Part shown: piece after piece, positions 11,412-53,184 of the stretch | How the letters are laid out: each line of letters opens with the position of its first letter | Numbering within the stretch: the stretch's first letter is position 1 | Assembly (NCBI GenBank): GCA_019775845.1 | Contig: JADQAV010000060.1 | Span: 132,135 to 196,134, forward strand | Direction: 5' to 3' | Length of the DNA: 64,000 nucleotides | Source: Myrmaecium sp. VS I D KN 1 | Lineage: Eukaryota; Ascomycota; Dothideomycetes; Valsariales; Valsariaceae | Notes under the pieces: generated by a model | What the model saw: only the letters and a program-made list of their open reading frames with translations | The model's database searches: none | What the model was told of the DNA's origin: nothing | Made by a program: the position numbers and the translations under genes

Positions 11412-12751
11412 ATGGCTCCCAACGGTACGCTAGATCTCCCGCCGAAATCCCCGCTGGGGAGCATAGCTAACAACAGCTTCAGGACGCCCCCGCGTGTTCT
11501 TTGACATCCAGATCGACGGCCAGCCAGTCGGCAGAGTCGCATTTGAGCTGGTAAGCCTTCTCTGCATGAATCTAGTCCCTCAAATATTGAGCTGACTCGG
11601 TCCAGTATAATGATAGTAAGCGCAACCGCAATATGCAGCATACTCTCTTCTGCGACTAACGGACCATTCAGTCGTCCCCAAGACCGCGGAGAACTTCCGC
11701 GCGCTCTGCACGGGTGAAAAGGGCGTTGGCAAGGCTGGAAAGCCTCTTCACTACAAGGGCTCCATCTTCCACCGCGTCATCAAGAGCTTCATGATCCAGG
11801 GTGGTGATTTCACAGCGGGCAATGGCACCGGCGGCGAGTCGATATACGGAGAGAAGTTTGAGGATGAGAACTTCGAGCTCAAGCACGAGAAGCCCTTCTT
11901 GCTGAGCATGGCCAATGCTGGCCCCGGCACCAACGGCAGCCAGTTCTTTGTCACCACGGTCCCCACCCCTCATTTGGACGGCAAGCATGTGGTGTTTGGA
12001 GAAGTGATCAATGGGAAGAGCATCGTCAGACAGATTGAGAACATCAAGACCAACAGCAGCGATAAGCCAGAGAAGGATGTCGTTATTGCCGGTATGTTGC
12101 AGGAACGGTAATCGGATCTTTTCCGTCAACTAACCGCGATTCACAGACTGCGGTGAGCTCACTGGTGAGGCCTACGAGAAGGCTACCGAGAAAGTACCTG
12201 ATGCCACCGGCGACCCATACGAGGACTACCCGGAGGATCAGAGCACCGAGTTTTCCGGCCCAGAGATCGTCGAAATCGCCTCCAAGCTGAAGGACATGGG
12301 CAATGCGGCTTTCAAGTCTGGCGACATCCGCCTCGGCCTTTCCAAGTACCAAAAGGGCCTCCGTTACCTGCACGAGTACCCGGAGCCGCTGGAGAACGAC
12401 CCTAAGGGCCTCGGCGATAAGCTCAACTCCCTCAAGTTTTCCCTCCACTCCAACTCCGCCCTCCTGCAGCTCAAGCTGAAGCAATTCGACGATGCGGCGA
12501 GCTCGGCGACAAAAGCGCTCGAGGTCCCGAGCGCTACGGACGCGGATAAGGGCAAGGCGCTGTACCGTCGCGCGTTGGCGTACGCCGGCAAGAAGGACGA
12601 CGACGCGGCGATTGCGGATCTGGAGGAGGCATTGAAGAAGGTGCCCGGTGACCCGGCCATCACGAAGGAGCTGGCTGCGGTGAGGAAGCGGGTGAAGGAG
12701 CTCCTGGAGAAGCAGAAGAAGATCTACAGCAAGGCTTTCCAGTTCGACTAG
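11412..12751 (+). CDS. cpr6: Cyclophilin Cyp40/Cpr6 type (peptidyl-prolyl isomerase D)
   Basis: Hsp90 co-chaperone with a cyclophilin isomerase domain and C-terminal TPR repeats. Exons are 11412-11424, 11483-11550, 11606-11615, 11672-12091 and 12147-12751, giving 371 residues, the same length as yeast Cpr6. The third exon is only 10 nt and is required to supply YND in [17 protein letters not shown]. Isomerase motifs are [28 protein letters not shown] and [13 protein letters not shown]. In this last motif His stands where CypA has the cyclosporin-contacting Trp, as in other Cyp40 proteins. TPR helices start near residue 220 ([37 protein letters not shown]). No signal peptide is present, so the protein should be cytosolic. 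Confidence 0.95.
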
Positions 12752-13195: not shown

Positions 13196-14144
13196 TCAGA
13201 GTTTCCAGAGACTGCCGTCGTAGATAGACAGTACCCTATCGGCGCCGTCCTTCGGGATTTGGTAACAGCCGCCGGGGAGCGGCATGTCGTGGGGCTCGCA
13301 GCCGCAATTGGCGCAGGGATATCCGAACCAAGGCTCCTTATCGGTGCCCTTGGTCAGGTAAACGGAATGGGCGTCTTTGTCAAAAGTGATGCACCCGAGG
13401 CTGCGACCGTGGTGGTTGTGGATCTTCTTTTTACTGTGGTGAGGAGATGGCATTATTATCAGGGAGAGGAGCAAGATGCAGGAGTAGGGACCAAGCGAGT
13501 CGCTCGTACCACTGAAGATCAGAATACTCGTTTGCCTTTGGGTCGGTGGAGTCTTCGGGGTTCGAAGAAGCGTCATCGACTTCCGCGACCTTGCCTTGGA
13601 CGTCGACGTCGATGTCGCGACCTCCCACGGTGCTCGAGACTGGAACGACGGCACATGCGCTCAGCGGAATCTGCTTGACGGACAGCATCCAGTCATCGTT
13701 GGTGACGGACTTGGCGACGGTGCAGCCGTCGTCAAGCTGGACGAACTCGCAGTTGCAGTCGGTGCAGTTGTAGCCCACCCAGACCATGGTAGGGTCGCCG
13801 TTCTTGACGTCAATGCTCCAGGTGTAGCCGTGCAGGTTGATGCAGGCATCCGGGCTGAGGTGCGTGTACGTGACGTTTTTATCATCAGCACCACTAATGC
13901 GAGAAACAGAGCTGTTAGTCGGGATTCCTTTGTCCTTACAAGGGAGGTGCTGAGTGGTCGGGGGAACTTGCCATAGGTTAGTGTTGAAGAACTCCCTCAC
14001 GTAGGGCAAGGAGCTGAGCGGAGTGCCATCGGATGATACGGCTTCAACATCAGTATCCACCTGCTCACGGTCTTTTGGAGTAGCCAGAGCGGTAGTAGAG
14101 CCAACCACCGACAGTGCGAGTAGAAGGAGTTTAGCAGCGACCAT
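13196..14144 (-). CDS. Secreted two-module six-cysteine protein (array copy A)
   Basis: Unrecognised family. Exons in transcript order are 14144-13972, 13893-13510 and 13433-13196, giving 264 residues. The N-terminus MVAAKLLLLALSVVGSTTALA is a clear signal peptide, so the protein should enter the secretory pathway. It has two copies of the array module. Module 1 spaces its cysteines 16-25-2-1-8, with core VGYNCTDCNC. Module 2 spaces them 13-25-2-1-10, with core FGYPCANCGC. The linker contains DPKANEYSD just before the second intron. Both introns split the first Cys codon of a module as TG^T. The first intron uses a GC donor (gcaagt) and attag acceptor; it is 78 nt and open in frame, so retention would add 26 residues and replace that Cys. 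NSS, NVT and NCT sequons could be glycosylated; NSS lies inside the first intron. Function unknown; an effector-like role is inference. Confidence 0.75.
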
Positions 14145-14998
14145 AGTGACTTCTCAAGACGGCGATATGGTGCTAAACCAGAATGAAGCAGTGTAGAAGG
14201 CTGGGGAATTCTGCGCGAATGCTGGGCTGGACGAAGTCGGGACGTCAAGCAGGTACAGGTGCATTCTTTTATAGGAAGTCTCGGTGCCAATATGTTCCAG
14301 GCGGTGTAGAGGAAGCGAGGGACGTGGTTTCGGGTTGCTTCCAGAATCAGATGTAAGCCGACTTCCTCCATCACTGTACTCCTCACTAAGATTATATTGG
14401 CTCTGCAGGAAGTGAATTTGGACCAGGAGATGAAGTGCGATACAAGCTCTTCTTCATATTTTTTGGAATATACCTACTTTGATGCTGTGGTACTCGCATC
14501 GATCTCTGCTAATCTACAGTAACCGTCATCTTTGTGCTTGATCTCGGTCGTCTAAGTCTCTACTAACGTTATCCTGACAGGGTATTCGAGGCTTGAAAGC
14601 CCATAAAACGTTAATCATACCGTTTATAGGAGCCTCGTGCTATCTAAGCCCTTAAAGGACGAGTATGTGTGGCAGCGTGTACACTTTCATATGCATAAAG
14701 AGGAAGAGCTGCCGACGGCGGTTTATGTAGCACGAGGTGCTGATCGAGAGGGACAGTATAACTAGCAACTCAGGGACTGCTATGCCATGTTGTTGGAGGC
14801 ATATTCCTTTCCACGCCACAACTGAAGGAAAAATGGCAGATAGCTCGGGCAAGGTGGTAACGGAAGTAGAACGAGTAATATTATTATTATTCACGCTTTG
14901 AGATGCTAATTCACAACATGGTCCGAACCTGGTAGATTAATTTCGTCCTCCGGCCCGGGATCGCATGAGAAAACTTTTCCTGAACATCTTCCTTTCCT
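14145..14998. other. Spacer between secreted-protein genes A and B
   Basis: About 850 bp of AT-richer DNA upstream of copy A. A weak open frame lies at 14652-14894 on the minus strand, but it lacks the six-cysteine module and any recognisable feature. I find nothing else here. Confidence 0.4.
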
Positions 14999-15581
14999 TC
15001 ATATTGCCTTCGAGAGCTGCTTTGTCCTTGTCCCATCCCATTCCAACCCGTCCAAGAGCACGCCCAGGACTCGATACTGCCCATCCTTCACGATCTGGGC
15101 GCACTCGTACGGTAACGGGTTCGGGTTACGCCGGCATTTGCAATCACTGCAAGGATAGCCCCACCAGTAGCCGTGCTTGTTGTCCGAACTGGCAAAGTAA
15201 ACCGAGAGGGTGTCGTCGTGCAAGGCCACACAGAAGTCGCCCAGGGTGCGGGCGTGGTGGTTGTAGGTCTTGTTGACGCTTCTCTTTTCTGTCAGCCAGC
15301 CTCAAGCGTCTCGATCGGATGTGAGGTGGAATGGAGACTGCTGGTGGAGAGAAAAAGACGTACCAGTGCAGATCCGAATATTCATTGGCTTTGGGATCGG
15401 TTTCTTCGGATGATTCAAGCCGCTCGTCCGCAGGTCCAGTTGAGCTTGCCACTGTAAGGCCCTCGGGAGATGTACTTCTAATGGCTCTTGCAGCGAGGCC
15501 AGCACCGACTAGGCCCCAAGGTGCGGCAATAACTCCGATCACTGGGATTACAAGTACAAAGAAGCCTCGGAAGAAACGCAT
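14999..15581 (-). CDS. Secreted six-cysteine protein (array copy B)
   Basis: Exons in transcript order are 15581-15364 and 15278-14999, giving 165 residues. MRFFRGFFVLVIPVIGVIAA is a signal peptide, followed by a ~50-residue Ser/Thr/Glu-rich pro-region that ends DPKANEYSDLH. The module follows with cysteine spacing 15-26-2-1-10 and core WWGYPCSDCKC. The donor is gtacgt after TG. The acceptor I chose is gagaag, just past a stronger-looking cag, because it alone restores frame and rebuilds the first Cys codon (TG^C) followed by VNKTYNHHARTL, matching copy C. An NKT sequon lies next to the first Cys. The C-terminus continues about 35 residues past the last Cys. No known domain is recognised. Confidence 0.72.
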
Positions 15582-16079
15582 GTTGACGCCGAGTATTGCG
15601 TGTACGAGCTGCGTGTGAATTAACGCTCCGAGCGGCAGTGCTCAGGGGGCTTCAGAATGTGGCAGACTTCATATCCTCACGCGGTAGAGAGCCCCCTAAT
15701 ATTAAATAATGAACTTGTCGACAATCTATCGATAATAAGGCTTTGTGATCAAAGTCTGAACTGTAGTGAATCCTAAGGTCGGCTAACTTGTGCAATTCCT
15801 GTGGCCAATATGACCTTTTGCATAAAGGCATACAGAAGCACAGAGGACGGTCTATAAGTCGCACTTTTGAAAATGGTTCGGATAGCAAATGTGCATTGCC
15901 ACGGTGCTGGGTACCCGTCCAGGGATGGTGACTGAAGTAATATCTGAACCAGGTCTGTTTGCGTACACCTCCGAGCCTGAACACACTTCGTTATAGCCAA
16001 GTGATACCACGCTGTCTCCAGTTGTCTCCACCAGTCACACGTTATTCGTACACACACTTGCAATGATGGTGGGCGGGTA
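15582..16079. other. Spacer between secreted-protein genes B and C
   Basis: About 500 bp with no module remnant or other gene that I can support. It should contain the promoter of copy B. Confidence 0.4.
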
Positions 16080-16520
16080 TTAGACCTCCGCAGCTGATAT
16101 CAATCCAACTTTTCCCTGCTCGGGTAGTCGGTAGCACCCGGACGGCAAAGGTACGACATGAGGATCGCAACCGCAGTCCTCGCACGGATACCCCACCCAG
16201 TGTCCAAAAATTCTGTTGCCGTTTGTGAAGTAGACAGACTGGGTATCAGAGCGGAAGTTGATGCAACCACCGGCGAAGAGGCTGTGGTGGTTCTTGGTCT
16301 TATTTTTGCTGTTGACAGCGGTTAGTTCAGGCTGCAACCTAGCGCAACCCTTTCCCTCGATTTGGCTGAAGCAAGGAGCGACATACCACACTGTATCGGA
16401 GTACTCATTCGCCTTTGGCAAAGCTACAGCATTGCGCTGTACGGCCTTCCGTTGGCTTTGAGGAGCCGCGAGCGCTCCCATGAGAAAGGTTGCCACTATG
16501 AGGATAACTTGGACATGCAT
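16080..16520 (-). CDS. Secreted six-cysteine protein (array copy C)
   Basis: Exons in transcript order are 16520-16387 and 16308-16080, giving 120 residues, the shortest and simplest family member. I start at the ATG at 16520 because MHVQVILIVATFLMGALA is then an immediate signal peptide; an in-frame ATG at 16604 would bury it. A short pro-region ends ALPKANEYSDTV, then the intron splits the first Cys codon as TG^C. Cysteine spacing is 14-26-2-1-10, with NKT, NHH and the core HWVGYPCEDCGC. The intron is 78 nt and stays open in frame, so an unspliced message would also give a full-length product with Trp-Tyr in place of the first Cys. Confidence 0.75.
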   Translation of the reverse strand: MHVQVILIVATFLMGALAAPQSQRKAVQRNAVALPKANEYSDTVWYVAPCFSQIEGKGCARLQPELTAVNSKNKTKNHHSLFAGGCINFRSDTQSVYFTNGNRIFGHWVGYPCEDCGCDPHVVPLPSGCYRLPEQGKVGLISAAEV

Positions 16521-17079
16521 GATCTTTTCGAAAACCTGGTTTTTAGGGAAGCAAACAGGTCGGTACAGACGATCCATTTCTATGGGTTTGCGAGACAGGA
16601 GCAAGCTGCGACACAGACGTGGTTATGAAGGCAGGTCATGTTGAAGCTGGCCGGCTAAGAACCGAACATATGACTTGAGGAGGAGCTTGTGACCCAACAT
16701 TGCCAGCTATATTTTAATGACAAAGATTAGGATTTGCGCCCCCTAGCTCCATGCTTTGCCTTAAGGTCGTGGTGATCATGGAAATTAGCCGTCAAGTGAT
16801 AATATGAAACGGATCTCTGTAAGCACATGAACAGATGCCCCAAGTATAAATGCGTAAGGGTGATTGTTAAGGTGTTTTGCTGATGGAAAATTGACTCAGT
16901 ATGTCAGTATATGGGAGGCCCGGTGATGCTCATGAAATATGATCTCGAGTAAGTTATCTTACTTACTTCTATGGGCCAGTTGTCTCGGTTAATCTATTTT
17001 TGCTGGGAGACGTAGGTGTTTTCCTCGGCCGCTGCATGCTTAAAGCGTTCCTTTCATTATTTTTGCGGGGTTTGTCCAT
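16521..17079. other. Spacer between copy C and the relic copy
   Basis: About 560 bp of promoter and spacer DNA. No open frame with family character is seen. Confidence 0.4.
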
Positions 17080-17545
17080 TACTGGTACCAGCCTTTGATC
17101 TGCTTCGTGAAGAGCACGATTCGCTCTCCCTCCTCGGGAAGAACATAACGGTTGCTGGGTCAATATTCAAGGTTGGCTGTGTTGCGAACGCAGCCATAGA
17201 ACGGATAACCGTGTCATTTTCCATCCGTGCTGTCACCACACGTAATGTAGTCTGATTGGGTGTCGTACTTCAAGTTGAGGCAAGCACCATTCAGGAAGCC
17301 TCGGGGTATTTAGACCTTACCGATGTTCACTAGTGGCCTGGTGAGTTTATATACGTAAACCCGAAGTGATAGATAGCTTACCGTTCCCTGTCTCTATGTT
17401 CGCTCGCCTTAGCTGCAGTCGAAGTGACAGATGCCATGATATCTGGAGTGGTGAAGCTGGTGGCATCCTGAGATGTGCGGCTGTTACAGAACCCCGGCAA
17501 TGATACAGATCTTGATGAGAACCTGTCGGTAAGAGGTTATGAGAG
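17080..17545 (-). pseudogene. Decayed copy of the six-cysteine secreted family (copy D)
   Basis: Between copies C and E, minus-strand fragments resemble the family but do not form an open gene. An upstream piece near 17390-17430 ends in AKASEHRD just before a gtaagc donor, matching the KANEYSD-intron junction of A, B and C. Downstream pieces near 17090-17290 resemble the module: GACLNLKYDTQSDY corresponds to GCINFRSDTQSVY of copy C, then a GYP core and a YVLPEEGE tail. Several core cysteines are gone and a few breaks interrupt the frame, so the copy looks dead. It supports local duplication followed by loss. Confidence 0.6.
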
Positions 17546-18821
17546 AAGGACGTAGATATGTCCGTTGGACGTTGTCACTGCTAGTCATGAACTCATGGTA
17601 GGCAAAGGTCCACTGAGAAGAAGGTCAGGCGGCTGAACTACCAAAGAGTTCCTTTTATCGGCTGGGAGAGTGCGCGACGTCGGGGACGTGGTTTCCGAAA
17701 AGGGATAGAGCTAGCCGCGCTGCAAGAGGAAGTTGCCGACTTGCTGAAAGGAGCCTCTTCCGAGCCTGTGTATGGATGGTCTTTTCCTGCCAGTGTCGGT
17801 GCCGTCGATGCCAACGTACCTGATTGACATTCATAGTTTTGTTGAAAGACACCCCAGCGGGAACGGGACCCGAGGAAGGTATATAGGCAGCTGGAGCAGG
17901 ATATATATACCTGAATGAGCGCCAAAATCAAAGAACTAAAGAAAGCAACCATCATAATGGTTGTATTCCGCTACACTGACCGCTGAAAGTAGGTGATTGA
18001 TAAATCAGATTAGAAGCAAGCTTGCCTACCCGTGGGAGACAAATTTTCCTCGAACATCAAACGGCGAGCAAAGCGGGGGGAGCGTACGGTATATATAATC
18101 ATCTTTTCCTCTGACGCCACAATATTTCGTACTAACCGGTGGAGTTTCTGATTATAGACAGGAGTGTCGATTCTGGTATCGCTTGTAGCACGGGGAAATC
18201 AAACGAAGGGCTTGGTGTTTAGACTGGTACGACCATACAAGGGAAAACGTAAGGTGACATTGCACGTGTTATTGAACGACCAGATCAATCCGCAGGCTCA
18301 AGCAAGAAAGAGGCTGTCTTCTCGCGGAGTTATATACGGCAGGGTCAACTGTGAAGGCGGTGTTGCCTGTAGGCAACAGGCTTGAATGGGTAGGTTGAAC
18401 TTTGGAAATTCTGCTACAACGAGTGGAACGAAGATGCAAGTTGAAGAAGTCAATTTAAGGAAGTGGCTTTGTTTGCCAGAATGAGTCTTTTGATTCAGTG
18501 ACTGTAGGAAGGAAGGTAAAACTTAGCAAAGGCTCTTGCAGCTACTAGACTGTGGCAGTGTAAAGGCTCTCGAAAGAGAAAAATCAAGGGCTAGAGAAGC
18601 TTCTGTCGAAGGCTCCAAATGGAAGTGCAAAGCGTGGAGTATAGGTGAGCGTTTTGCCCAGCTCATCCGACCAGTCCCAACCATGACCCCGTACTCTGGA
18701 GTCTAATGAGCGGCATATCGATGCAGTAACAAGCCGTAAGGAGAGATATGGGAATGTCGGTCTGCCGGATGGCAGCACCACTTCAGATTCCTTGCCCGTT
18801 TCGTTTCTTTCCGCCACCGAT
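17546..18821. other. Spacer between relic D and copy E
   Basis: About 1.3 kb. A minus-strand open frame at 17638-17955 begins with a hydrophobic stretch, MMVAFFSSLILALIQVY, that resembles a signal peptide, but it lacks the module and then becomes low complexity. It may be a fragment of another lost copy or chance. Nothing else is supported. Confidence 0.35.
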
Positions 18822-19411
18822 TTAGGTGCCTTCATGCTTGAGACTCCAGATCCGGCCCAGGAAATAGTCGAACGTGCCTCCCTCCATCACCACACAGACT
18901 TCATCCGTGTCCGGCAGAAACTGGGCCTTGCAGTCGCAGTTGGAACAGGGATACACCTCCCACCTGTTGTTGCGCTCAGGAGCACCGCGACGAGTGTGCA
19001 AGGACTTGATGTGGTGGTCGGTGAACATGTTGATGCACCATTTGCCTGGAGGGACGAGATAGGTGGTAATGTTTGGAAGATAGTACTTGGTCGGTTCGGA
19101 GCTAATGACATAGATGTTTAGCCGGTTGATGAGCTAGATATAGAAATTTGGAAACGGGCGTGGGACGTAATGGGGAATAACACGTACCATCTATCGTCAT
19201 CGTAGACCTTGAGAGCCGGAACCTTCTTGTCGGTATCGCCTTCATCGGTGGTGCTCAGGCGTGCGCCGTCAGTGAAGTTCACCGTAGGCGACCAATTGGT
19301 CAAGTCGCAGTAGATCAGGCGTTTCTCAGGCGGGTGTCCCATAGCCGTAAGGGCTAGGCCGAGTAGACCTCCAGCTATCAAGACCATCCAGAGAGAGGGT
19401 GGAGACTTCAT
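18822..19411 (-). CDS. Secreted six-cysteine protein, divergent (array copy E)
   Basis: Exons in transcript order are 19411-19188 and 19101-18822, giving 167 residues. The N-terminus MKSPPSLWMVLIAGGLLGLAL is a signal peptide. The pro-region differs from A-C and lacks KANEYSD; it has an extra Cys (LIYCDLTNW) and an NFT sequon. The intron again splits the first module Cys codon (TG^C, gtacgt donor, attag acceptor). Cysteine spacing is 21-29-2-1-11, with core WEVYPCSNCDC, so it is the most divergent intact member. An NIT sequon lies between the first two cysteines. It is a family member by intron position and six-Cys spacing rather than by overall similarity. Confidence 0.72.
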
Positions 19412-20298
19412 GGCTGTTGCCGTTCCTTGACGTTGCGCAGATGAGCTTGGTGTGAAGGAAATAGAAGATGACAGGTAGTGGGGATGTTGAAAGAGTCGAA
19501 GAAGAGTTGAAGGAGGAAGTTTTTATAAGCGGCAGAAAAGCGCGGTTTGTGGGAAAATATGAAATGTCGGTCAGTCTGCGCATGTTTTTCCCATTTGGAT
19601 GCATGTGATCCTGAATAGCAAGGAACTGAATGAACCATTCCATCACTACAGCTGAACCACACCGCCAAAAGAAATGGAAGCTGCAAGGACCGGGAATTGA
19701 CTACTTTCTAAGCTTCCAGATGGACTACAGGCACAATGCGCACCCAGGTAGGTACAGTGGGAGATGGAAGAGCAGCATTGTATCTTGCGCTCGGTGTTTG
19801 CTGCGGTCAATATGGAGAGTGCTCATACCCTAGCCGCTATCCAATAAACATGGAACGTTGAATCACATGTCGATACCGCACAACTTCAGGTCGATCCGAC
19901 AAGTAGAAACAAAGCATGTAGTAAAGAAAGTAGACTGTAGTTGTTGAAGAACAAGCTATCGGGGAATATGAAAGAAAAGAGAGAATCGCACAAAGAAACC
20001 AAAGAACTGCCCCTCCCATGAAAAGAGCCCTGAGAACTTGGTGGAGTGTGTGGGAAAGAGTAGCCCATCCTAACGCCCGCTTGAAGAGTCAGACCGCGCA
20101 CCTAGGCTTTTGGGACTCCCAAGGTAAAGATAGAAGGATCACGAACGCCCAGTCGACGATTCGTAGATGCTGCCACAATAAGGCTTTCCCACAACGTAAC
20201 GGAAACCGCACGCAAGCAAGACCGACACCGAAGCCTGGAATCCATCCACGCCAGCGCCATGGAACAGGGCATCGTTTCGCCGGTGTTCGCCTCCACCC
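19412..20298. other. Right flank of the secreted-protein array
   Basis: About 890 bp between copy E and the EAF gene, holding the copy E promoter and the EAF 3' flank. No gene or module remnant is seen. Confidence 0.4.
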
Positions 20299-21776
20299 TC
20301 ACTCTTCCTCACTCACTTCACTCTCACTATCTTCTTCAACTGAAGGCACCGCAGGCGCTGGTGTTTGCGTCGCATCAGGCACCTCATCCCAGGCTTTCTC
20401 CATCAATTCTGCGAACTCGTCGTCCATATCTTCGTCTTGTTCCTGCGAAGCGACATTTTCCTCGACCACCTCATCTGCGTTCTCTTCGTCGGCAGCCTTC
20501 TGCTTACTCTCAAAGGGCTCCAATTCCCTATCGCCAGCAAGGGCTTCGCTCTCCCCCTCTTCACTGAGGTCTTCCTCATAACCTCCATCCTCTTCCTCGT
20601 CTTCGTCCTCCCCACCACGGCTCAACTCGCCAAAATCAATAACTTCCAAGTCCTTGTCTTTCCTGCCTGCAAGGCTACCCGGAGCCCCTGCGAAACCGCC
20701 CAAGTGGGCTGGAGTATGCAGTCTGCTCCCAGGTGACACACTATTCGCTGCGGATCGCAGGGATATAGGCGCATCGTGTGAGGGATGTGGCTGAGGCGTG
20801 AGGCCGCTAGTACTGGCTGGAGGAGACAGCGATGGGGATTCCGCTGGTGGCGCAGGACGAGTAGAGGCCCGGCGATCCAGATGAATCTTGGGAGGCGCGG
20901 GGACGGCAGCCGGTTCTCGTTTCTGCATGGCAGGACGGGGCGCAGACTTCTTTGTAGGCTTAGCCGCATTTTGACCAGTCCTTTCTTTGTTTGGGGCCGG
21001 TTCCGGAGCAGGGTTCGTGGGGGGCGGAGATGATGGGGTCGCGGATAGGAAATGTCGGAAATCGAATGGATTGGACGGGTCGGGGCTATCGTCGTTCAAG
21101 CGATCGGTAGCCGTACCTGGTGACACAGTCTTTGGGGAAGGGAGTTGAGGGTATTCCGAAGCCAAGACACTCGCGGATGGTTCCCACGGGGTGCTGGTCA
21201 GGTTGAATGCATATTCTGTGTCGAGGGGCTCGAGGGTGCAGCTCTGAGTCGAGGGGTCGAAGACAAGAACGTAAGAGTGTGTCTGCGAAGCAGCCTTGCC
21301 TACATACTCGTAGCGCTGTATATCCGAACCCACAGCTCCTTCGTCGAGAATGGTGAGAATGTGCGTTCCGTCGTCATTGGGTGCGACCGTGGTCTTGCGA
21401 GTCGTGTCGAGGTCTTGATCGGGCTTGTGGTTGACTGCGATAGCTGTTAGACAAAGAAAATGTAACGAGAGTTTGACGTAAAGCAATGGCGACTGGAGTA
21501 GGACATACACTTGACACTCGAGGTACCGCCGCTGCTTTGACCGGATCGTTGCAGACGGTCGCTCAGCTCGATGTTCCAAACGCTCTTCTTGCGAGGGTCG
21601 ACCTCCCCGCCGACGGCGCAAGCAGATGACATGGTGCGCTTCCTCGGTCCCAGTAGGCTGGCAAAGCCAGCTGCGGCAAGTTCTTGTTTCCTGCGACGGT
21701 TGAAAGCTCCCGACTGGAGCTGCTGTCTGTTGGTGTCGGAGCTGACGTTGGCCGAAGAGGGGGCGTGGGGAGCCAT
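20299..21776 (-). CDS. eaf1: EAF-family RNA polymerase II elongation factor
   Basis: Probable ELL-associated-factor homologue that stimulates Pol II elongation in the nucleus. Exons in transcript order are 21776-21509 and 21443-20299, giving 470 residues. The N-terminal ~190 residues contain the EAF-like region: a VWNIELSDRLQRSG start, then across the intron VKSIAVNHKPDQ, a Thr-rich strand and RYEYVGKAASQTHSYVLVFDPSTQSCTLEPLDTEYAFNL (shown in parts), the most family-like segment. The rest is low-complexity Pro/Ser/Ala with a very acidic C-terminus (DEDEEEDGG, EDSESEVSEEE), as in other fungal and animal EAFs where the tail acts in activation. Identification relies on the N-terminal domain pattern and the acidic tail. 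Confidence 0.75.
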
Positions 21777-22407
21777 TGCGCCGGTTTGGATTACAGGGAT
21801 CTTGCGGCCCGATCCGTTCGTTGGTGGCTGCTAAAGATAGTAGCTGGCTGGACGATCGTTCATGTATCTTCACGGCGCACAGCACCGCACGAAGAAGTAA
21901 TAGAGAGCAGGTGGTATAGAAAAAGGATGTATGAAGTTGACAGGGTAGAATTAGGAGTTGAAGTTGCGCGCGACTTGTTGCTGTGAAATAGGTATGTCAG
22001 GCAAAGTGACAAAGCAAGCAGTGGTCAATATGTAGGTAGTATTCGAACCGTAGCACACCAAGACCAAGCAAACGGAGAAGGGATGCTCGTGGTTATAGCT
22101 AACAGAGAGGCCACAGTTGTGAAAGTTTATATCGTTGTGATTCATCGTGTTTGAGTTCCAGACTGCCCTCCAGTCTCACGTACGACTGCATGCGTTAAGT
22201 AACTATACCAAATGGCTCGTTGCGCTATGTAGTTAATCTTTGTATTCACAGTTATAAATCAACCGACCACGGTAGATCTTTCATTGCTCTGACCAACTAG
22301 AATACCAGGATTGCTTTTTCCTGAATATGAGAGCTCCTAGGGACAACAAGGTATCAAGGCCGTAACGAAGTCAATATCCACGCATAAAGGTGAACGTTAG
22401 CGATGCA
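21777..22407. other. EAF promoter region
   Basis: 630 bp between the EAF start and the COG8 stop. It is AT-richer than its surroundings around 22000-22300. No gene is seen. Confidence 0.4.
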
Positions 22408-24027
22408 TCACGACGCCAACGGAGAAGTCACCCTTTCGGCCGGTGAGCTTGTCCTTCCTATCCCTACGGGCGACCCGCCTCGACTTCCAGCCGAATCTCT
22501 TCGTCCCCCAGCCCCAACACCGCTCGCCAATAATTCCAGTCGACTCGCCTGCACCCGGTGCTTCTTCATCACCTCCACCCATTCCGTATCTTCCCTATCT
22601 CCTTCGAGGGGATCTCGCTCTTTCTGATTCTCCTCCAACTCCTCTTCTAGCAAAGCAAGCATCATCCCAAAGTCGCCTCCCAAGCGACCTAAACTCCCAG
22701 CGCAGTATAACACCTGTGTGAGCAGCGAGTCCCTGCTTGCCCGATCCTTGACATTTGGAAGATACTTTCTCAGTGTATCGAAGAGCAAGTCCACCAGGTG
22801 CGCCGGAAATGTCGCTAGTGCCGACGGCAGCGGCAGCAACATGTTTTCTTCCCGTCCTCGATCCCCCATCTTTCCAGTGGTTGTCGCAGCCTTGAGCGTA
22901 GGACTCTCATCGCCTTCTTTCACGCCGGGGGGAACTAACGCCTGCGGAAATATGCTGCGGTACATACTCACCAATGCAAAGCTCTGTTCCCTGAAAATTT
23001 CGATGTATCGTTTGAGATATCGCTCCGTTTGTTGTCCCGTGGCCCAGTCCCTTCCCCCTCCCGCCTTCCCATCGCGTCCCTTCTCCTGCTCCGCCAGCTC
23101 CCTCAACGGCTCCAGCGCCTCAAGCATTCCGACCAAGCAGCCTAATCGGCACACAAGGAACAACGCACCCAGCGCACCTTCACTTTCCCCTTTACCCGCA
23201 CTTATCCCTTTCTTCCAACCCGTTGGCCCTATTTTCTGTCCGAAATCCTCCCCTTCCAACTCCGGCGCTACCCTCCTCAACCACCCGACAACTCTCATCC
23301 CGACTGCCAGTTTCAACCCTTGCGCTTGCAACGCATTGATCAGATTGCTCGTAAGGACTCTCATTTCCGCCTCCGCTTGCGCAGCGAGGCTCTTTGTGAG
23401 CTGTAGGTCCGGATATAAAGTATGCAACCTCTTTATATGAGCGTAGAGGTCGAGCGCAGATGCATAGTTTGCTGTTGCTGCGCCGGAAGTGGCGATCATG
23501 GTGGCGCCGGGGGTGGTCGGCATCGCGGTGCTGGAGGAGGATATGGCGGAGCTGAGAAGCGTGGGCAGATCAAGGATGTCGGAGATTCGGTCGGCATTAC
23601 GAGAGAGGAGGAGAGCGGCGCGGCGGCGTTGGAGTAACGGTTTGGGCGCGTCTGATTCATTGCTGCTTTTGCTATACTTTGTCGCGAATGCAGTGGCGGC
23701 GCTGTCGAGAGAAGGAAGGTGGGAGCGGAGTTCTGAGGCGGAGATGGCGAGCTCGGGGAGAGTGGTGCGGAGGTGGGAGAGGGAGGTGGACGAAGCGATC
23801 AAGGACTTGTGGCTGCGCTTGGAGAGGGCTTGGAGCTGTCGGAGGATGGAGGCGGATTGCTGCGACAGCGCTTGCGGTTCGTTGGTGGTCAGAGCAGCGA
23901 GGGAGAGAGTGGTGAGGTGGGTGAGGTATGATGATGTTACGGGGTCGGTCGGGGATGGGCGCGCGTCGGCGGGGATGTCATTGGCGTCAAAGTACGGGGT
24001 TAGAAGATCGTGGAGTGGATCCGCCAT
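22408..24027 (-). CDS. cog8: Conserved oligomeric Golgi complex subunit 8
   Basis: Dor1-family subunit of the COG tethering complex, which acts in retrograde transport within the Golgi. Single exon, 539 residues. I start at 24027 (MADPLHDLLTPYF) because the longer frame from 24231 adds 68 residues with no family character. Family features are SYLTHLTTLSLAALTT, ILRQLQALSKRSHKSLI, LPELAISASELRSHLP and the block RRRAALLLSRNADRISDILDLPTLL, followed by helical segments such as LYAHIKRLHTLYPD and RLGCLVGMLEALEPL. The C-terminal third is Gly/Ser-rich. Divergent from the UBE2O-like gene. Confidence 0.85.
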   Translation of the reverse strand: MADPLHDLLTPYFDANDIPADARPSPTDPVTSSYLTHLTTLSLAALTTNEPQALSQQSASILRQLQALSKRSHKSLIASSTSLSHLRTTLPELAISASELRSHLPSLDSAATAFATKYSKSSNESDAPKPLLQRRRAALLLSRNADRISDILDLPTLLSSAISSSSTAMPTTPGATMIATSGAATANYASALDLYAHIKRLHTLYPDLQLTKSLAAQAEAEMRVLTSNLINALQAQGLKLAVGMRVVGWLRRVAPELEGEDFGQKIGPTGWKKGISAGKGESEGALGALFLVCRLGCLVGMLEALEPLRELAEQEKGRDGKAGGGRDWATGQQTERYLKRYIEIFREQSFALVSMYRSIFPQALVPPGVKEGDESPTLKAATTTGKMGDRGREENMLLPLPSALATFPAHLVDLLFDTLRKYLPNVKDRASRDSLLTQVLYCAGSLGRLGGDFGMMLALLEEELEENQKERDPLEGDREDTEWVEVMKKHRVQASRLELLASGVGAGGRRDSAGSRGGSPVGIGRTSSPAERVTSPLAS

Positions 24028-24529
24028 CTTCGCATTGGTGAGAGGAACGATCGATGGTGTTGGTGAGGAGCTGGTGCGGACGATGGGCAGATGCAAGGTG
24101 GTCCCGTTCACATGGGACGGGAATGGATGGACGGAGCGACGATCTGCCCGCAGCACCTCCGAAGGTTCCAAGGTTCCTGTCAGGCAGGCGAATACGGAGG
24201 CACCTGCCGCCCAGAAATATCCAACGTTCAACTTCCAGTTTTGTTTTCACCAGAAGAAGCCAGCTTGTTTATATCTAGTATATAACAACGTCTTCGGCCC
24301 TGACATTCAGTGTTCCGCTCTTTAGGCAGGCCGCTCGCCAAGAAGAATCTATTTATACAACTACAGTCGCTGTTCAACGAACGATCGAGTAGGGCTCGGT
24401 ATTTTTCCTTCAACCGAATGTCTTCCTCCCGCTGCCGCCTTGCCCCTCTTATAACAATTTGCAACCACAACCTCCTCGCGCTCCTTCAAGTCCCCATCAC
24501 GGCGGAAGTCTTTTGTCCCCGCTTCCATC
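24028..24529. other. Divergent promoter, cog8 and UBE2O-like
   Basis: A 500-bp spacer between two divergent starts. No specific site is recognised and no gene is supported. Confidence 0.45.
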
Positions 24530-34837: not shown

Positions 34838-36791
34838 TTACCAACCCTCAGGCGATTCAGCTCGGCCGCTACCGTTGTCGTTCCAACCGCCAACGGCAGC
34901 AGTGTCTTCAAGTCCGGCGGTGTTCCAGTCGCCCGCTGCGGCCGTCTCAGCGCCCGCGTCCACAGTCGCCCAACCACCAGCAACAGCATCGCCACCCGAG
35001 GACTCGTGGTTGCCAAAGCTGCCTCCGCCCATGCCGGTGGCGTCACCAGCGTCAGCGTTTGCCTGAGGGCATCTCTTGTACGTATGGCCGGTCTGGTTGC
35101 AGACGTTGCAAGTGACCTTAGACCAGTCCTTGGGTTCGGGACAGTCCCTCGCAAAATGGCCGACTTGGTCGCAGTTTCGGCACGTGTTGGTCGCAGGATT
35201 CCGAGGCTGGTCGCATTCTTTAGCCATATGGCCCTCAGCTCCGCAGTTGCGGCAAGACCGTGGTGGAGGCGCTTCTGGACAGTCCTTGGAAAAGTGTCCC
35301 ATTTGTCCGCAACGACGGCATTCCACGTTAGCCGCAGATCGAGGGTTCGGACACTCGTCCTTCTTATGTCCTACTTCGCCGCAGTTGCGACAGGCGAAGC
35401 GATCAACTCGTGGCTGCGTACAGTCCCGAGCGTAATGGCCTGCTTCGCTGCAAATGGCACATTTTCTGACTTCCTTTTCGCCGGCGGCAGATGGGAATCC
35501 ATTCACGTCATCCGCCTCCCATCCTTCGCCTTCGACAGCTGGGGCAGCCTCGGGCTCGTTACGGCAACCCCTGACCGTATGGCCAAGCTCGCCGCAACGC
35601 CTGCACTTAGGGATTTGCCGGTCCATAACAACTCCGGCATCTTTCAACCGCTCCATGTTCTCTTCTGCACTTGCAGGGTAAGACTCTGCTTCGATCTTAC
35701 GACGAGGCTTAATTCCGCCCAGGCGGAACTGAAGAGAGTACTTCCTGTCTTTCTGGCCGCGAAGATCAACGATCGTCATGGTGTCAACAATAGGCTTCTC
35801 AAGAGCGACGAGGTTGATGTTTCTATTCTCCTTGCGAAGCATGCCTTGTAGGTCATCGAGTTCGACTTCCACTTTCAAAGCATATGCATAAAGAGCCTTC
35901 ATTGAGTGTTAGTCCTGCTTAGATAGCTTGGGATAGCACAACTTACATCGCGGAAGGCATCGATATCCTTCTCACCGTCAGCCTTCATCATCTCTTCCCA
36001 GGCTTTCTCAGGCGGCCAGTCGGGAACATTGGGAAACCTCAACACACGCTTGTTCGTGCACTCAGAGGTCCTGTGGCCCTCTTGGAGACAATTCTTGCAT
36101 TTAACGGGCTCTCGCTGGGGGCACTCAGCAGCACGGTGGCCCTTCTCATTGCAGATGCGACATTCCCCGTCGAACGGACGTTCCACACGTTCATTCGGGC
36201 AGTCAGCCTTGTTGTGACTAGTCTAAGGTTAGTTGCTATTATGAAAGGCATGTCTCTTGCAGACTATGCTGACTTACCCAATTTGTCCGCAGTTGTAGCA
36301 TTCACCGGTCATTTTCTTCGGCTCGGTGCAGTCACGGGCGAAATGGCCTTCTTGTCCACAGCTGATCAATGGTTAGTGAGAGGGAAGACGCATCATCGAT
36401 TAGGTGTACTCACTTCCTGCAAGCTCCATCGCCTGCGCCACCCTCTCCACCGTAACCCGCATAGGATTCACCTCCATTGAAGCCAGCGTCGCCACCATTG
36501 CCCCAGGCAGAGGCGTCCTCATTCGCATGAGCATTGCCCGAGGTGAAGTCATCTTCAGTGGCGCCGACGTTGCCAGACGCGAAAGGATCGTCGGCTTGCT
36601 CAACGGGCTTCCAGCTGGTTTCGGCATGGACACTGCCATCCACGGAGGAGACACCGCCATCACTGTCACTGTCACTGCTGCCTGTACATTAAAAGGTATG
36701 TCAGTATTTTTCCGACCAGCTACGGAGAGGAATATCGAATGACTTCAGGCTCGGTAATCGAGGAGTGAGATGACTTACCTTGCCAGCTCAT
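34838..36791 (-). CDS. Zinc-knuckle protein with eleven CCHC motifs
   Basis: Probable single-stranded nucleic-acid binding protein of the CNBP/Byr3/Gis2 type, expanded. Exons in transcript order are 36791-36779, 36681-36414, 36361-36278, 36217-35947 and 35896-34838, giving 564 residues. The N-terminal ~90 residues are acidic and Gly/Ser/Asn-rich. Eleven C-x2-C-x4-H-x4-C knuckles follow in two groups: four near the N-terminus (CRNCGQEGHFARDC, CYNCGQIGHNKADC, CRICNEKGHRAAEC, CKNCLQEGHRTSEC) and seven after a ~150-residue non-knuckle insert containing VPDWPPEKAWEEMMKAD and RKYSLQFRLGGIKPRRK. The tail is Gly/Trp/Ala-rich. The first exon codes only MSWQ plus one base. The knuckles are CNBP-like rather than retroviral Gag because there is no adjacent capsid or pol. 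Confidence 0.9.
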
Positions 36792-45578: not shown

Positions 45579-48500
45579 TTAAAAAGTTTCGCTCTCAAAA
45601 CTGTCATACGTTCTCAAAGATCCTAGAAAACAGGTTAGTGCCCGTTGTCGAAATGGGTCGTTGGCATGTAACATACTGTTATCGCTCGGCACAGGCTTCC
45701 TCCGTACAGTGCCGGTGTTTTCATAGCCATCGCTTCTCTGGCTAGGGCTGCGAGCAGCGCTCATAGGCCGCGGGCCCGTGAGTTTGCGCTGCGGAGGCGG
45801 GCTCTGCAGCAAGCTGCTGTGGCCGCTGGGGGCAGGAGAAGGGGTCATATGCTGTGAAGAAGGTATGTCAGTCAAACGCTGAGCGGATAGTCAAGAAGTC
45901 GATATACGTACCTTCCTTCCGGAGTCCGTCTCCAGACTATACCTGCACTCCGGAATCGGCGCAAGGGTGGTTATGATCGCCGGACTGCCCATCATAGCGC
46001 CGGGGCTGGAATACATGGATCGCAGCTGGTATGACTGTTCCGCTTGGGACAGAGGAATCTTGGGCGGCACTTCCGGTACAAGAGGACCGTCGTCTCTGAG
46101 GTTTGACCTAGCAGCGGTGACGGAAGCCTGATTGATTGCTTGTTCAGCAGCCGAGTTAGCAGAGAGGCCGCCCTCGGAGGAGACCGAGACTGGCGACGGA
46201 TCACGACCGCCGCTCAGCCTGTGCCGGTTCAAGGCCAAAGATGGGTTAGAACCCCATTGGTCGGTATCTGGAGACATAGACATCGGCTCGTAAGAGTATG
46301 CCTGCGATTCCAGGTGCGATTGGTGGCGTCCGGTAGGGCCAGGACGGGGTTGGGGGTGTTGGAGGTTCAGCGAGTTGCGATGAGCTTGGTACTTAGGGTC
46401 ATCAAACTCGGAATCAGGGATGAGTGGAGACGGGGATCGAGGCTGCTCGTTCATCTGAGCAGTGTGGGCAGCCTGCTGCGCGTCCAAAGATGTGTTCGAG
46501 CGGAAGCGGTCATCGCTGTTCAGCTCGTAGTCATAGTGGTAGGTTATGTTCACGTCGGAACCGGACCGGGAATGCGCAGAATACGGTCTGTCTTGGCGTT
46601 CGCTACTGTTCCGAGGCTCCTCGGGGTTCGTGGATGAAGTCGTCTTGGACCACCGCGAGATCTTTGGGATGCCAAAAAGAGAGGAGCTGTTCGACTTGTG
46701 CTTCCTTTTGGGGGTGTTGTCTTGGCTTTGAGAGCCCGAGTTCGGCTGCTTCGGCGGTGTATCCTGCATCGAGTTGCGTCTCATATCCTGGGTAGGCGTG
46801 AGGAGACCACCCTGCTTATCGAACTGGTCGAGCAGGTTGGCTTCGTATTCGTCCAGATCCTCATCGCCTTCCATGACAGTGCTAACTCGGTTGTTAGGAC
46901 CCCTACGATTATCAAACCCAGAATGCATAGGATTTGGCCTTGACGAACCACCTGAGAGGTAGCCGGACTGGTTTGGCGTGGACGCCGTGTTCGCTCGTCC
47001 TTCAGGTTCGTAGCCGGGGTCCGTCGGAAGTCTATCCCTCAGGTTTTCGTAAGAAGTCAGACCGCTGTGGGTCTGACCATTTTGCGGAGCTAGCATTGGC
47101 GCTCGCTGTAGTTGCGTTTCCTTCAGTCCTTCCACCTCTCCCAGAAGCTGCATGAGCATAGACTCAATGTTCCCAAGATCATTGGAGCTGCGCATGCTTA
47201 GGCCCTTGAGTGCGCGTTTAAAGACGTTCTTCCTCTTTGCCTGGATTTCTTCTACATCCTCAGTTGAGCGCCTAGGGTGCCGTGGCGGACCCAAGGGTTG
47301 GGGCCGCGGCCCTTGCAAGATCTTCTGCTCCGAGAGGCCGACACGTCTATCGGTATTATCCATGATGAGACGGTCTTGCTCAGCAATAAACTTCTTCATT
47401 TCCTCAAATGAGTTCCGCATCTCCGCAGCACTCCTCACAAGCGTGACCAAGATTTCGGTGTCTCTTGCATTACGCTGAGCATCACGGACGGTTAGATGAT
47501 CCATCAGAGCCACGATGTCCTTCGACTGGATGTAATCCATTCCTTTCCCGGTGGCGCTATCGTACATGGGCGAACCAATAGCATGAGAATCGTCACTGAA
47601 ATGACGGGTATGCTCAGGCTTGAAAGAATCGCCCATGCCCATGCCCATGCCATCGTCGGAAGGCAAATCCATGTTGAGGTACTTCAACTGCTGCGGTTCC
47701 GGAGAGTATCCACCAGGCTGATGTGCCGAAATATAGCCTTCATCCTTCCATAGCGCGGGACTGGAGCCGTTGGCATCATTCCGAGAATAGTAGTTGGCAT
47801 CGTCATCCTCCTCGTGTTCGTCTTCCACGGTAGGTTGGTAACGTTGTTGTTCTTGTCGAGCAGGGCTGAGAGTCTTGTCATGATGGATATGCGCAGGTGC
47901 AGCAGAGCCGGCGCCGAATTTGCCCTCATTCTGTTGCTGGTCTGTATGAAGGCCGCCGCTGGACATTGGAGGAGTAGGGTACCTGTCATAACCCGGCCCA
48001 GGACCGCGAATCTCGGATGGGTTCGTGGTCACGTCAGAATAGTCATCATGATCGTAGCCAATTTCTGGCATGGGATTGTCCTCGGTCGGGAAGGCAGTAG
48101 CACCCATTTGAACGGGATCGTCGTCGGACTCAGCAACGCTTTGGCGTGGAGAGTTCGCGACTTCATCGCCGTCGGTGTTTTGGCCCACCAGAGCACGAGC
48201 GTGGTCCTTCAGGGCTCCCCACCTTTGGCTGCTTGATTCTTGCTGCTCATCTTGCTCGTGCACTTGCTCATCTTCCTGCTCTGATCCCTCCCCATATATA
48301 TCTTCTGGCTGGATTTGCTTCTTCAATGGGCTTGACGCAGATGAATGACCACTGACCGCCGACGGGTCAAGCAGCGAGGCGACAGCAGACTCAACAGCAA
48401 CTGGCGGATGAACATAGTCTGGTTTGGCGCCAACACCCTTCACCTCGCGGGTTGCATTGGTTCGGTCATCATACTTGTAGTCCCCGCTGTCTTCGGTGAA

Positions 48501-50759
48501 GCCAGTGACACGCGAGCCTTCTTCGTGCTGCTCCAGCTCGCGACGGTACTGCTCGTTCTCCTCGTGCTCCCTTCTGAAGAACTCATCCATATCACGAGCC
48601 GGAGTATTCGGTGTGCTGTTATCATTGTAGCTTAGCTCCGACTGAGTCGGACTCATCACGTCCCGCTCAGAGCTAGCGCCTTCCGAGCCCCTGCGAGTCC
48701 GCGCTTTTGTTGTGCTCGATGGAGAAGACAAAGAGTCTATAGAGAGGTCAGATTCTTTTCGCAGGGCGTGGTGACCAGCAGAAGTTGCCGGACTGTGGGG
48801 GGACATCGCACGCTCACGACTCTCGAACTCCCTCTTCAGACTAGCCACGCTCTGTGCCGGACTGAATTCACGCGGAGGCGTATGCGGGGCAAAGTCGCGC
48901 TTTGAAACGGAATCTTTATCTCCGTACGACAACCCTTTGGAAAGCCCAGCTGCACTTAAGGCAGCGGCTCTCGCCTTTGCGCTTATACTGCGTTCGCTCT
49001 TGGCGCTGAGGTTCCCCTCATTCTCCTTGTCGAACACAGACCTTTGAAGAGTGATAGGGGTTCGCGGGGTCCCTGTCGGCGACTTAACCTCCCTAGGAGA
49101 ACCACGGGAGACTTCTCGTACTGGAGTCTCAGGAGCCCGAGATGACCGAGAACCTGGCCGCTCCGACTCCGCCGTGAGAATTGATTCGCGTGTGAGGTCG
49201 GAACCCTTGACAGTACTGTTCAGGGGAAGAGGTGGTATCTCGGTCTTTAAGCGTGTCTCGTCGACGCTTTCAGATTGGCGGCTTCTGCTGCTGCTATGAC
49301 GCTTCCTTCTTTCGGATCTTTCAGAGGCTTCGGATTTCTCTGACTGCGAGTCATGGTGACGGAGGGCTGCTGCGGTAAGACCAGCGCCGACTGCCCCAGC
49401 AGCCGCGGCCTCACGAAGCTTATGCTTATCCTTGCTCTTTCGACGATGCACTTTTTCTTCGTCCTTCCCATCATAACTCCGCATAGATCCCGAACCTCTG
49501 CTAGAACGGCGGCTCTTGCTCTTGACGGAGTCACCTGAGAGAACAGTTCCTGGATCGTCCCCATGTCGATTCAGGACAACCTTCGGTTTTCCGATGCCTA
49601 CATTAGGCGCGCTGGAGGATTTGGAAACCTTGCGGGTAAGGTCTTCGCGAGACTTGCCTGAGGCTAACGCTTCCTTGGTGATCTTTTCAAACATGTCCTT
49701 GTTCTTTTGAGTCTTCTGCTCCTCCTTCAATGCATCGAGCTCGGGAAGGATGAGGCGGCGGATGGCGTCTTCCACGGTTTGCAAAAGCTTCGGGTTGTTG
49801 ATCGAGACTGAAGAACCTGATTTGACGGAGTGCGTGTCGCCGAGCCTTTTAGAGAGGTTCGAGGCCGAGAGTTGACTAGACTCCGTCAAGCTAGAATATT
49901 CATCATCTTTGTGTCTGCTCCTCCGCTCTCTTGGTGAACGAGCACGTTCGACGTCTCTGCTGCGTCGCCGTTCTCGGATGTCACTGCTTCTTACTGACGC
50001 CTCACTCGTCAAATTCTGGCTCGCGAGCTTCTCCATAACTCTCTGTGCGATGCGCTCCTTGCTTAGACTTCTGCTTCGTCGCCGCGTAGGCGCTTTCAGC
50101 TTCTCTTTCGTGATGTCCGGTTCGTCCCGTTCTAAGCTGCGGCTCCGACGTCTTCCGGGGCTTTGAATAACAGGCTCGTTGTCAAGCATACTGTCCGGGG
50201 GCATGGACGAGATATCGGATGGAGGAGAGACGTATTGTCCCTGGGTGAGGTCCGGATTTGATAAGTCGCTGTAGTGCTGGAGGACCTCGATATCCAATGG
50301 TGCTCCAGTCAGATTTGAACCCTCAGAATACGAGAGGTCCGACGGTACTTCGTCCTGAGAAGGCCGGCCACCTAACGATATCCGTCTGGTATATGATGGC
50401 CTCCTATCCCTCCCAGTCTCGGTGATTTGAACGTGGTTGCTGCTGCTTTTGGATTTTCGGTGAGAAGACGGGGTCACTCTGACCCTGACGCTGGGGCGAG
50501 TATGAACGCGGTCGCCGTTCTTGCCCGCCTCGAAATATTCAATCAAGAGGGAGGTGTGGGAGTTAGCCGCCCAGCTCTTGACCCCTTCGAGGTTCTTGGT
50601 CGGTATGGTGACGGGGCTGCCGTCTTCCGGGACGGAGAAGGAGGAGCGGTCAGTCCGCCGTGAGATGTCTGTTGCGACGTCGTCGCCAATCCCGCTGCCT
50701 GTGTCAGTGCTTGGTTCTGTCGGTGGTGGAAGGGGAGGACGGCGAGCGTCTACACCCAT
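45579..50759 (-). CDS. Very large disordered protein, unknown function
   Basis: I do not recognise this protein. Exons in transcript order are 50759-45912, 45851-45677 and 45622-45579, giving 1688 residues. It is rich in Ser, Arg, Glu, Pro and Gln and mostly looks disordered. An N-terminal block NLEGVKSWAANSHTSLLIEYFEAGK (residues about 56-80, shown for position) looks like a conserved structured patch. Arg-Ser clusters such as GRRRSRSLERDEPD and TRRRSRSLSKERIAQRV follow. A short Ala/Gly patch (AAAAGAVGAGLTAAA) near residue 450 could insert in a membrane. Residues about 1090-1240 form probable coiled coils (ARDTEILVTLVRSAAEMR, EEMKKFIAEQDRLIM, IESMLMQLLGEVEGLKE). The last exon codes only LRTYDSFESETF. 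A septal-pore, cortical or scaffold role is guesswork. Confidence 0.8.
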
Positions 50760-53184
50760 CGCGAGGAATCAGAGGTTCAGCGGGGTGGTTGAATACATCT
50801 GCGGTGTGGGTCGTGGGGCGTAAGGCTGTTCGGGATAGTGATAGAGGTCAAACGGACGTGGATGATTACGTATGGCTGATTCGATGGATGGATTCCGGCT
50901 GGCCGGCGTACGAACTCCTCCTGCTCCGTGATTGCACCCTGTGCCTCGCTTTTGCGCGACCTTCGCAGGATGTGCGACAGCGAAACAGCGGGCCTGTCCA
51001 ATGGAGTTGCGACTCGCGGAGAGAGAGCGGCGGGGAGCGGAGGGCTCCGATGCCAAAGCTGAAGGCTGTGGAGATTCAAGTGATGGGAAACTCAGGGGGA
51101 ACGAGAGATGGGCGTGCCTGCGAGACTTGCAATGTCAGTTGCTGAGGACATCGGCGGCGGTGGGAGACGAGTGGATTGATTGGAACGGTGTGTGCGGCGG
51201 GAATACCTCAGCGACGGAGCCGAGAGCAGCAAAGCGTGGCACCAGGTTGCGCCCACGCTGCAGACGGACACTCACTCTGGTTGGCAGAAGAAGGCAAGCG
51301 AATGCAGGCAGCGGCACCTTTGTGGGCAAAAAGGTCAGGGAGGGGGGGAGGATGGAGGGAGAGCGGAGTAGAGCAGAACAGAGCAGCACTGGAGAACAGC
51401 AGTCAAGCTGGGCACGGCGGAGAGGCCTGAGGATCGGGATGGCGGGCAGGCGGTCAGAGGGTCGAAGGGGTCGAAGGGTTGGAAAGGTGGAGGGATCTAT
51501 GGATGGGCCGAGGGCAAACCGGCCGGGCAACGTCCGTTGTCAGGCCCACGACACCGCCGCTAACGACGTTAACTTGAGAGCCCTGCCCGTTGCCGCTGCC
51601 GTACCGTCCCCGTTCCATCCAACCCATCCATCATCCCCATCCCACGCGCCAATCCACGTCCAGCAAGCATATGCGCAGGCATTGGTCCGACCAGGACGCG
51701 AAGGGGGCAGGGAAGCCCGTCCAGCCACCGCTTTCCCTCCTCCACTCACTGCCGTGCTCGCCGACCATGCAGCGTCGCCTATGGAGTTACTCCTACGACC
51801 GTGGCTCTGCTCTGAAGACGTGATCCTATCGTTTACCGTCCCTAGGTTCTTGTACAGATCAAATTTACCCAGATTAGTGACTGCTTCCACGAGTTCCAGA
51901 CATGTGCGCGGCAACACTTCTCCTGTGGCTGGGGAACAGGAACGAAAGGTCCTTCCGTCCATCCATCCTCCATCATCGAGCGTCCATCCGATCTCTCGGT
52001 GGCCAGCCGGCAAGTCCTACCAGCCGGCACAGCCCTCTCCTCCGCAAGTCGCACCATCTTGCGGCGAGGGCAAGTTGCTGTCTCGAGGATGCGATTGATC
52101 CGATACGTAGATCTATCTACTTCAGTAGCAGTCAAAGACTCATCAACACTCAATAAGAATATCCCTCAACCATCGCGAGCGCGCAAAACAAAAACACACC
52201 TCCATCCAGCTGTTGTTCCCCGCCCCGGCGCAACTGTCACCCATCAGTGGGTAGGTTGGTCGTTAGTCGCCTCGTCCCGCAGCTAACTACCAGCGGGCAC
52301 GGAACGATCGTCGCGGAAAAAACTGTGGGGCCCGATGATGGAAAGCCCGGCAGGGCAGGGCATGTGGTGGTCGGAGCGGAGCGGTGGGCTGCCAGCACAG
52401 CAACGACGACTAGTCGCTAGGTTACCAACCTCCCCTCCCTACTCCCCAACCCCCACCACCGCTCGCAATCGACTCGTCCGTGATCACAGCGGAGGTGAAG
52501 TCCCCGACTGATGATGAATTATTGGGAGTGAGTTGAGGTGGTTCAGGGAGTCGCCCGGGGAGGGGGAGGTTCTCCCCTTCCTCCTCGGATGTCGCTCCGG
52601 ACGGCAGCATTGGCACGAACTCAAATCGCGAGACGAAAGAGGAAAACATAAAGAATGATGACACTTGGTCAACACGTTGATGACAGGACTAGATCATGTT
52701 GTTCATGGATGAGAGGGGGCGGAAGAGATATTTCCGGTAGACTAATCACGCTGACATGGCCGCGAGCCAGACCATCCGTCCGCCCTGTAACAAGCAAGGG
52801 ACATATCTGACATGTCTGTCAGGCTGGTGAACTACGGTTCGACTCGCCATCCTTCGTCACCTTCGATCATCTTCATGCAAGCCTTAGCCTCTACCCGAGT
52901 CCTCGCCTACAGCTGTCAATGTATCCCCGTTCCGGTTCCGCGGGTGAGTGGCAAAGCAGCACTGGTGCCCGCAAGGCTGACTGACTCGTCAAGCGTATGT
53001 ACGTGAGCCTCTTACAGAATGCATCGATAAAAATGACCTTTCCCAGACGTTCCGAGTAACTAGCCATCGTTGACTGCGCAAACCAAGGATGCATGATCCC
53101 TCCTTCTAGCCTTTGACAGCCTTTAAGCTTACAAGTGTATGCATGGGTCGTTCAGTCCTGATAACTTCCAATCCCTGTAGAACG
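50760..53184. other. Long upstream region of the large gene
   Basis: About 2.4 kb between the start of the large gene and the 3' end of the SAM/HMG gene. It is GC-rich with many CCATCC and TCCGTCC words. A 388-codon plus-strand open frame at 50932-52098 is compositionally skewed, has no domain or intron pattern and overlaps the likely promoter, so I do not call it a gene. Confidence 0.4.

Follow-up and report, generated by a model that had tools for sequence, protein, structure and literature searches.

Organization of the array and its gene models

The window analyzed here is a 64-kb stretch (contig 51, positions 132135 to 196134) of a 25,660,682-base assembly in 66 contigs, and its contents, which include a chitin synthase, a fused tryptophan synthase, and spliced genes, mark it as fungal. 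At positions 13196 to 19411 it carries four intact genes and one relic copy, all on the minus strand and flanked by housekeeping genes. This is the arrangement described in the initial annotation, and the span given there was exact, with the start codon (ATG) of the first gene at 19411 and the stop codon of the last ending at 13196. To the left, a cyclophilin and a TPR exon lie on the plus strand (11791 to 12751) and are probably one CYP40-like gene. To the right are an EAF elongation factor and a Dor1 (COG8) gene (20299 to 24246, minus strand), followed by UBE2O and the chitin synthase on the plus strand. GC content was 49 to 50% in the 2-kb blocks covering 14 to 20 kb, compared with 55% for the whole window. 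Elsewhere on the minus strand of the window were a frame of 356 codons in which five stretches matched the CCHC zinc knuckle (34838 to 35908), a 1625-codon open frame without a Pfam match at E values up to 0.001 (45891 to 50768), and one protein combining a SAM domain that passed the curated cutoff with an HMG box that narrowly missed it (54493 to 55767).

Four spliced gene models were assembled manually on the basis of splice signals, and their splice sites are predictions. Gene A (13196 to 14144) encodes 264 amino acids with a signal-peptide-like N terminus and two modules, A1 (13653 to 13895) and A2 (13199 to 13435). Its exons (14144 to 13972, 13893 to 13510, and 13433 to 13196) are separated by introns at 13971 to 13894 and 13509 to 13434. 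Genes B (14999 to 15581; 165 amino acids; intron, 15363 to 15279) and C (16080 to 16520; 120 amino acids; intron, 16386 to 16309) each encode one module. Gene E (18821 to 19411; 167 amino acids; intron, 19187 to 19102) encodes one divergent module and an extra cysteine near the N terminus, and the relic module, interrupted by in-frame stops, lies between genes C and E (17109 to 17288). TATAAAA sequences on the minus strand were located 129 bases upstream of the gene A ATG (14267 to 14273) and 116 bases upstream of that of gene E (19521 to 19527), but were absent within 400 bases upstream of genes B and C.

An intron within the first cysteine codon

In the predicted gene models, a phase-2 intron interrupts the codon for the first module cysteine (Cys1) after TG in all five modules. 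The donor position after TG is identical in each, and the acceptor side, chosen with the reading frame in view, supplies the last base of the codon (TG|T in A1 and A2; TG|C in B, C, and E). In gene B, the nearer AGs led by reading to a stop codon, and the following AG was taken. The introns are 78 and 76 (gene A), 85 (B), 78 (C), and 86 (E) nucleotides long, four being GT-AG and one GC-AG; the GC donor belongs in the model to the first intron of gene A, the second having GT. A search of the gene E intron for a branch-site motif of simple form found none. Three of the five introns (76, 85, and 86 nucleotides) have lengths not divisible by three and therefore require splicing. Retention of the 78-nucleotide intron of C or the first of A keeps the frame open, but Cys1 is lost. 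Cys1 arises only through splicing, and the unspliced frames have tryptophan at that place in 5/5 cases.

The modules form one family

The spacing C-x13-21-C-x25-29-C-x2-C-x-C-x8-11-C that had been proposed was borne out in the five intact module copies of the four genes, the individual intervals being 16/25/2/1/8 in A1, 13/25/2/1/10 in A2, 15/26/2/1/10 in B, 14/26/2/1/10 in C, and 21/29/2/1/11 in E. The W-x2-Y-[PN]-C core was likewise recovered, with W and Y in invariant columns of the five-module alignment (5/5), as was one serine. A sixth cysteine is present by order in every module, although MAFFT did not place it in a single aligned column. The sequence PKANEYSD immediately before Cys1 is common to A2, B, and C.

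Leave-one-out profile scores were 69.0 bits for C, 66.6 for A2, 48.6 for B, 31.3 for A1, and 26.4 for E, and for each module none of 500 full shuffles and none of 500 cysteine-fixed shuffles reached the score; for the gene E module, the maximum among the cysteine-fixed shuffles was 17.2 bits. The five modules are thus related beyond their cysteines and constitute one real, coherent family. A chance cysteine pattern in unrelated frames would accord with the failure of single-sequence searches to detect E, with nothing in its favor for A1, A2, B, or C, but it is contradicted by the leave-one-out test and we regard it as having a negligible probability. Against it also stand the common modeled intron position and a six-frame scan of the window for C-x22-32-C-x2-C-x-C-x6-14-C, which gave five matches, each of them minus-strand and within the array, compared with three in total (mean, 0.1) across 30 Markov-1 random windows.

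The 25.66-Mb assembly was searched with single module sequences and the best candidates were scored. Module C identified four other places, the relic included, B and A2 identified two others each, and A1 one other, while E returned only itself and was missed by every other module; E is therefore assigned to the family from its leave-one-out profile score, the position of its intron, and its location within the array. At single-sequence sensitivity, the family is confined to the array in this assembly. The five-module profile run on the window found the five modules and the relic, with the best other stretch at 3.6 bits (E value, 2.7).

The annotated relic proved to be real, matching profile positions 13 to 71 at 17288 to 17109 with 19.3 bits (E value, 3.4e-5). 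It shares 39% identity with C, carries two TGA codons, and by reading has three of the five cysteines C2 to C6 replaced. No RIP signature stands out. Just upstream, a minus-strand open reading frame with a signal-peptide-like start (17638 to 17955) is possibly the decayed first exon of this copy.

Divergence of the copies and searches for relatives

Nei-Gojobori estimates on the module exons gave pN below pS in all 10 module pairs (pS, 0.54 to 0.76; pN, 0.33 to 0.55), with corrected dS ranging from 0.94 up to saturation. The array copies are old and constrained, and selection at single sites is compatible with pN < pS. The description of these proteins as fast evolving, taken as positive selection, is consequently not supported. 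As synonymous sites are at or near saturation, the family is old and probably shared with relatives.

Profile searches with the four proteins and five modules identified no credible Pfam family, with weak unrelated matches at E values of 0.025 and above. The lack of a match to hydrophobin, LysM, CFEM, KP4, and Hce2 patterns in the initial annotation held, as none was found by hmmscan against Pfam-A for the four proteins (E values up to 1) or in Pfam for the five modules. NCBIfam likewise provided no credible family (one member; E value, 0.54), nor did PDB sequences provide a credible relative (best E value, 0.65). In a 5.8-billion-protein set whose stated sources are genomes and metagenomes, none of 13 candidates was confirmed at E values up to 1, and at E values up to 10 neither was any of 7997 candidates sharing most words or of a further 562. 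Viral contigs contained no confirmed relative. The sets searched are without demonstrated fungal proteome content, and their empty results are thus weak evidence for novelty.

It is rather probable that the array belongs to a fungal small secreted protein family with existing orthologues and perhaps a name, a possibility compatible with the effector- or antagonist-type explanation favored below. Both the limited bearing of the protein-set searches on fungi and the near-saturated synonymous sites, which point to an old family probably present in relatives too, argue for such orthologues, whereas the lack of a matching Pfam-A model argues against them. The proposal of an undescribed system is not established, since fungi commonly carry small secreted cysteine-rich proteins of orphan status (PMC10462633), and nothing found ties the array genes into a multipart system.

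Predicted fold

AlphaFold models based on five-row alignments were of low confidence (mean pLDDT, 44.0 for A2 and 57.0 for B), and both listed strands and no helix. From these weak models the modules probably consist mainly of beta-strands, and each probably contains three disulfides. Structure searches with the better model (B) returned no useful match.

The beta-gamma-crystallin signature is N/D-N/D-x-x-S/T-S, and by reading it is absent from the modules. A compact, cysteine-rich domain of this double Greek key type, which the yeast killer toxin WmKT also has, acting as an antimicrobial or killer-type binder, nevertheless needed weighing because PMC10462633 reports the fold within a group of 18 orphan-effector families that were detected in more than 80% of 20 fungal species. 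This published breadth is consistent with such a domain, as are the strand pattern in the low-confidence models and the strands after C2 and C6, which look alike by eye. However, a test for an internal two-fold repeat was negative (z, -0.09; 1033 of 2000 shuffles scoring at least as well), although this test measures sequence similarity and halves alike only in structure would escape it. Pfam Crystall (PF00030) matched none of the four proteins or five modules and gave no match in the 25.66-Mb genome at E values up to 10, a search that was positive in 2 of 14 control genomes, and no crystallin was named among the structure matches listed for the weak model. We therefore consider a beta-gamma-crystallin-like domain improbable. 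An undescribed fold or disulfide topology is given the same low standing: a six-cysteine beta domain with Cys1 always joined from two exons, in which the 5' exon would carry the secretion signal and linker and duplication or fusion could act on whole module exons, a possibility suggested by the two modules in gene A.

Secretion and possible role

The claim of signal peptides agrees with hydropathy and the -3/-1 rule, by which all four proteins have signal-peptide-like N termini that include a hydrophobic segment and putative cleavage sites. The intact proteins are probably secreted, as judged from these sequence features. No second stretch of membrane strength was detected in the four proteins (highest 19-residue hydropathy, 1.22). 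After the putative signal peptide there are 13 cysteines in A, 6 in B, 6 in C, and 7 in E; A has one beyond twelve and E one beyond six, so pairing need not be uniform. With a signal-peptide-like N terminus and no other membrane span, lengths of 264, 165, 120, and 167 amino acids (below 300), at least four cysteines, and only weak unrelated profile matches (best E value, 0.025), the proteins have the features of effector-type small secreted cysteine-rich proteins.

We give about an even chance to the explanation that the array is an old tandem family whose products are extracellular, locked by disulfides, and of effector or antagonist type, the effector role being proposed by analogy. The proteins would be made with a signal peptide and exit via the secretory pathway, with a variable linker preceding one (B, C, and E) or two (A) small modules, which would consist mostly of beta-strands locked by three disulfides. 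In this view the scaffold would be maintained by the W-x2-Y-[PN]-C-x2-C-x-C core together with the constant cysteines. The loops, which vary between 13 and 21 residues from C1 to C2 and between 25 and 29 from C2 to C3, could allow paralogues to bind different external targets. By analogy, candidate targets may be host surface molecules or the proteins and walls of competing microbes. A conserved scaffold with variable binding loops is the mode of known effector-type small secreted proteins.

Alternatively, the proteins could be self-directed wall or surface components serving in adhesion, coating, or the spore matrix, and not aimed at other organisms. The signal-peptide-like N termini and the potential N-glycosylation sites in 4/4 proteins would suit such a role, as would the position of the array beside housekeeping genes. 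On the other hand, by reading there is no GPI-like hydrophobic C terminus, the second membrane-strength stretch is lacking as noted above, and Pfam identified no wall-binding domain in the four proteins; this role is unlikely, if slightly less so than the crystallin-like domain. The array offers a clean, checkable single-locus family, in which five modules are spread over four intact genes beside one dead copy, with a common intron position in the models and old divergence. A target, or orthologues in other fungi, would tell whether such small arrays serve in attack, defense, or self-coating.

Comparison with known secreted proteins

Hce2, KP4, CFEM, LysM, and hydrophobin proteins are secreted fungal proteins, as those of the array probably are, but the four array proteins matched none of these families in Pfam-A at E values up to 1. 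The modules resemble the beta-gamma-crystallin or WmKT-type fold in being small, beta-rich by the weak model, and probably secreted; they differ in having neither a profile match nor a sequence repeat, and in carrying six cysteines with C-x2-C-x-C. The array proteins also resemble the general class of fungal orphan candidate effectors (PMC10462633), which are likewise short, with a signal-peptide-like N terminus and several cysteines, and without a Pfam domain or sequence relatives in the searched sets. In contrast to these, the array is tandem, with one common spacing and a modeled Cys1-codon intron. Its distinctive points are this common intron, if the gene models are correct, and the restriction of the family, at single-sequence sensitivity, to a single old array in the genome. 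The array adds one unnamed family to the large known class of small secreted proteins.
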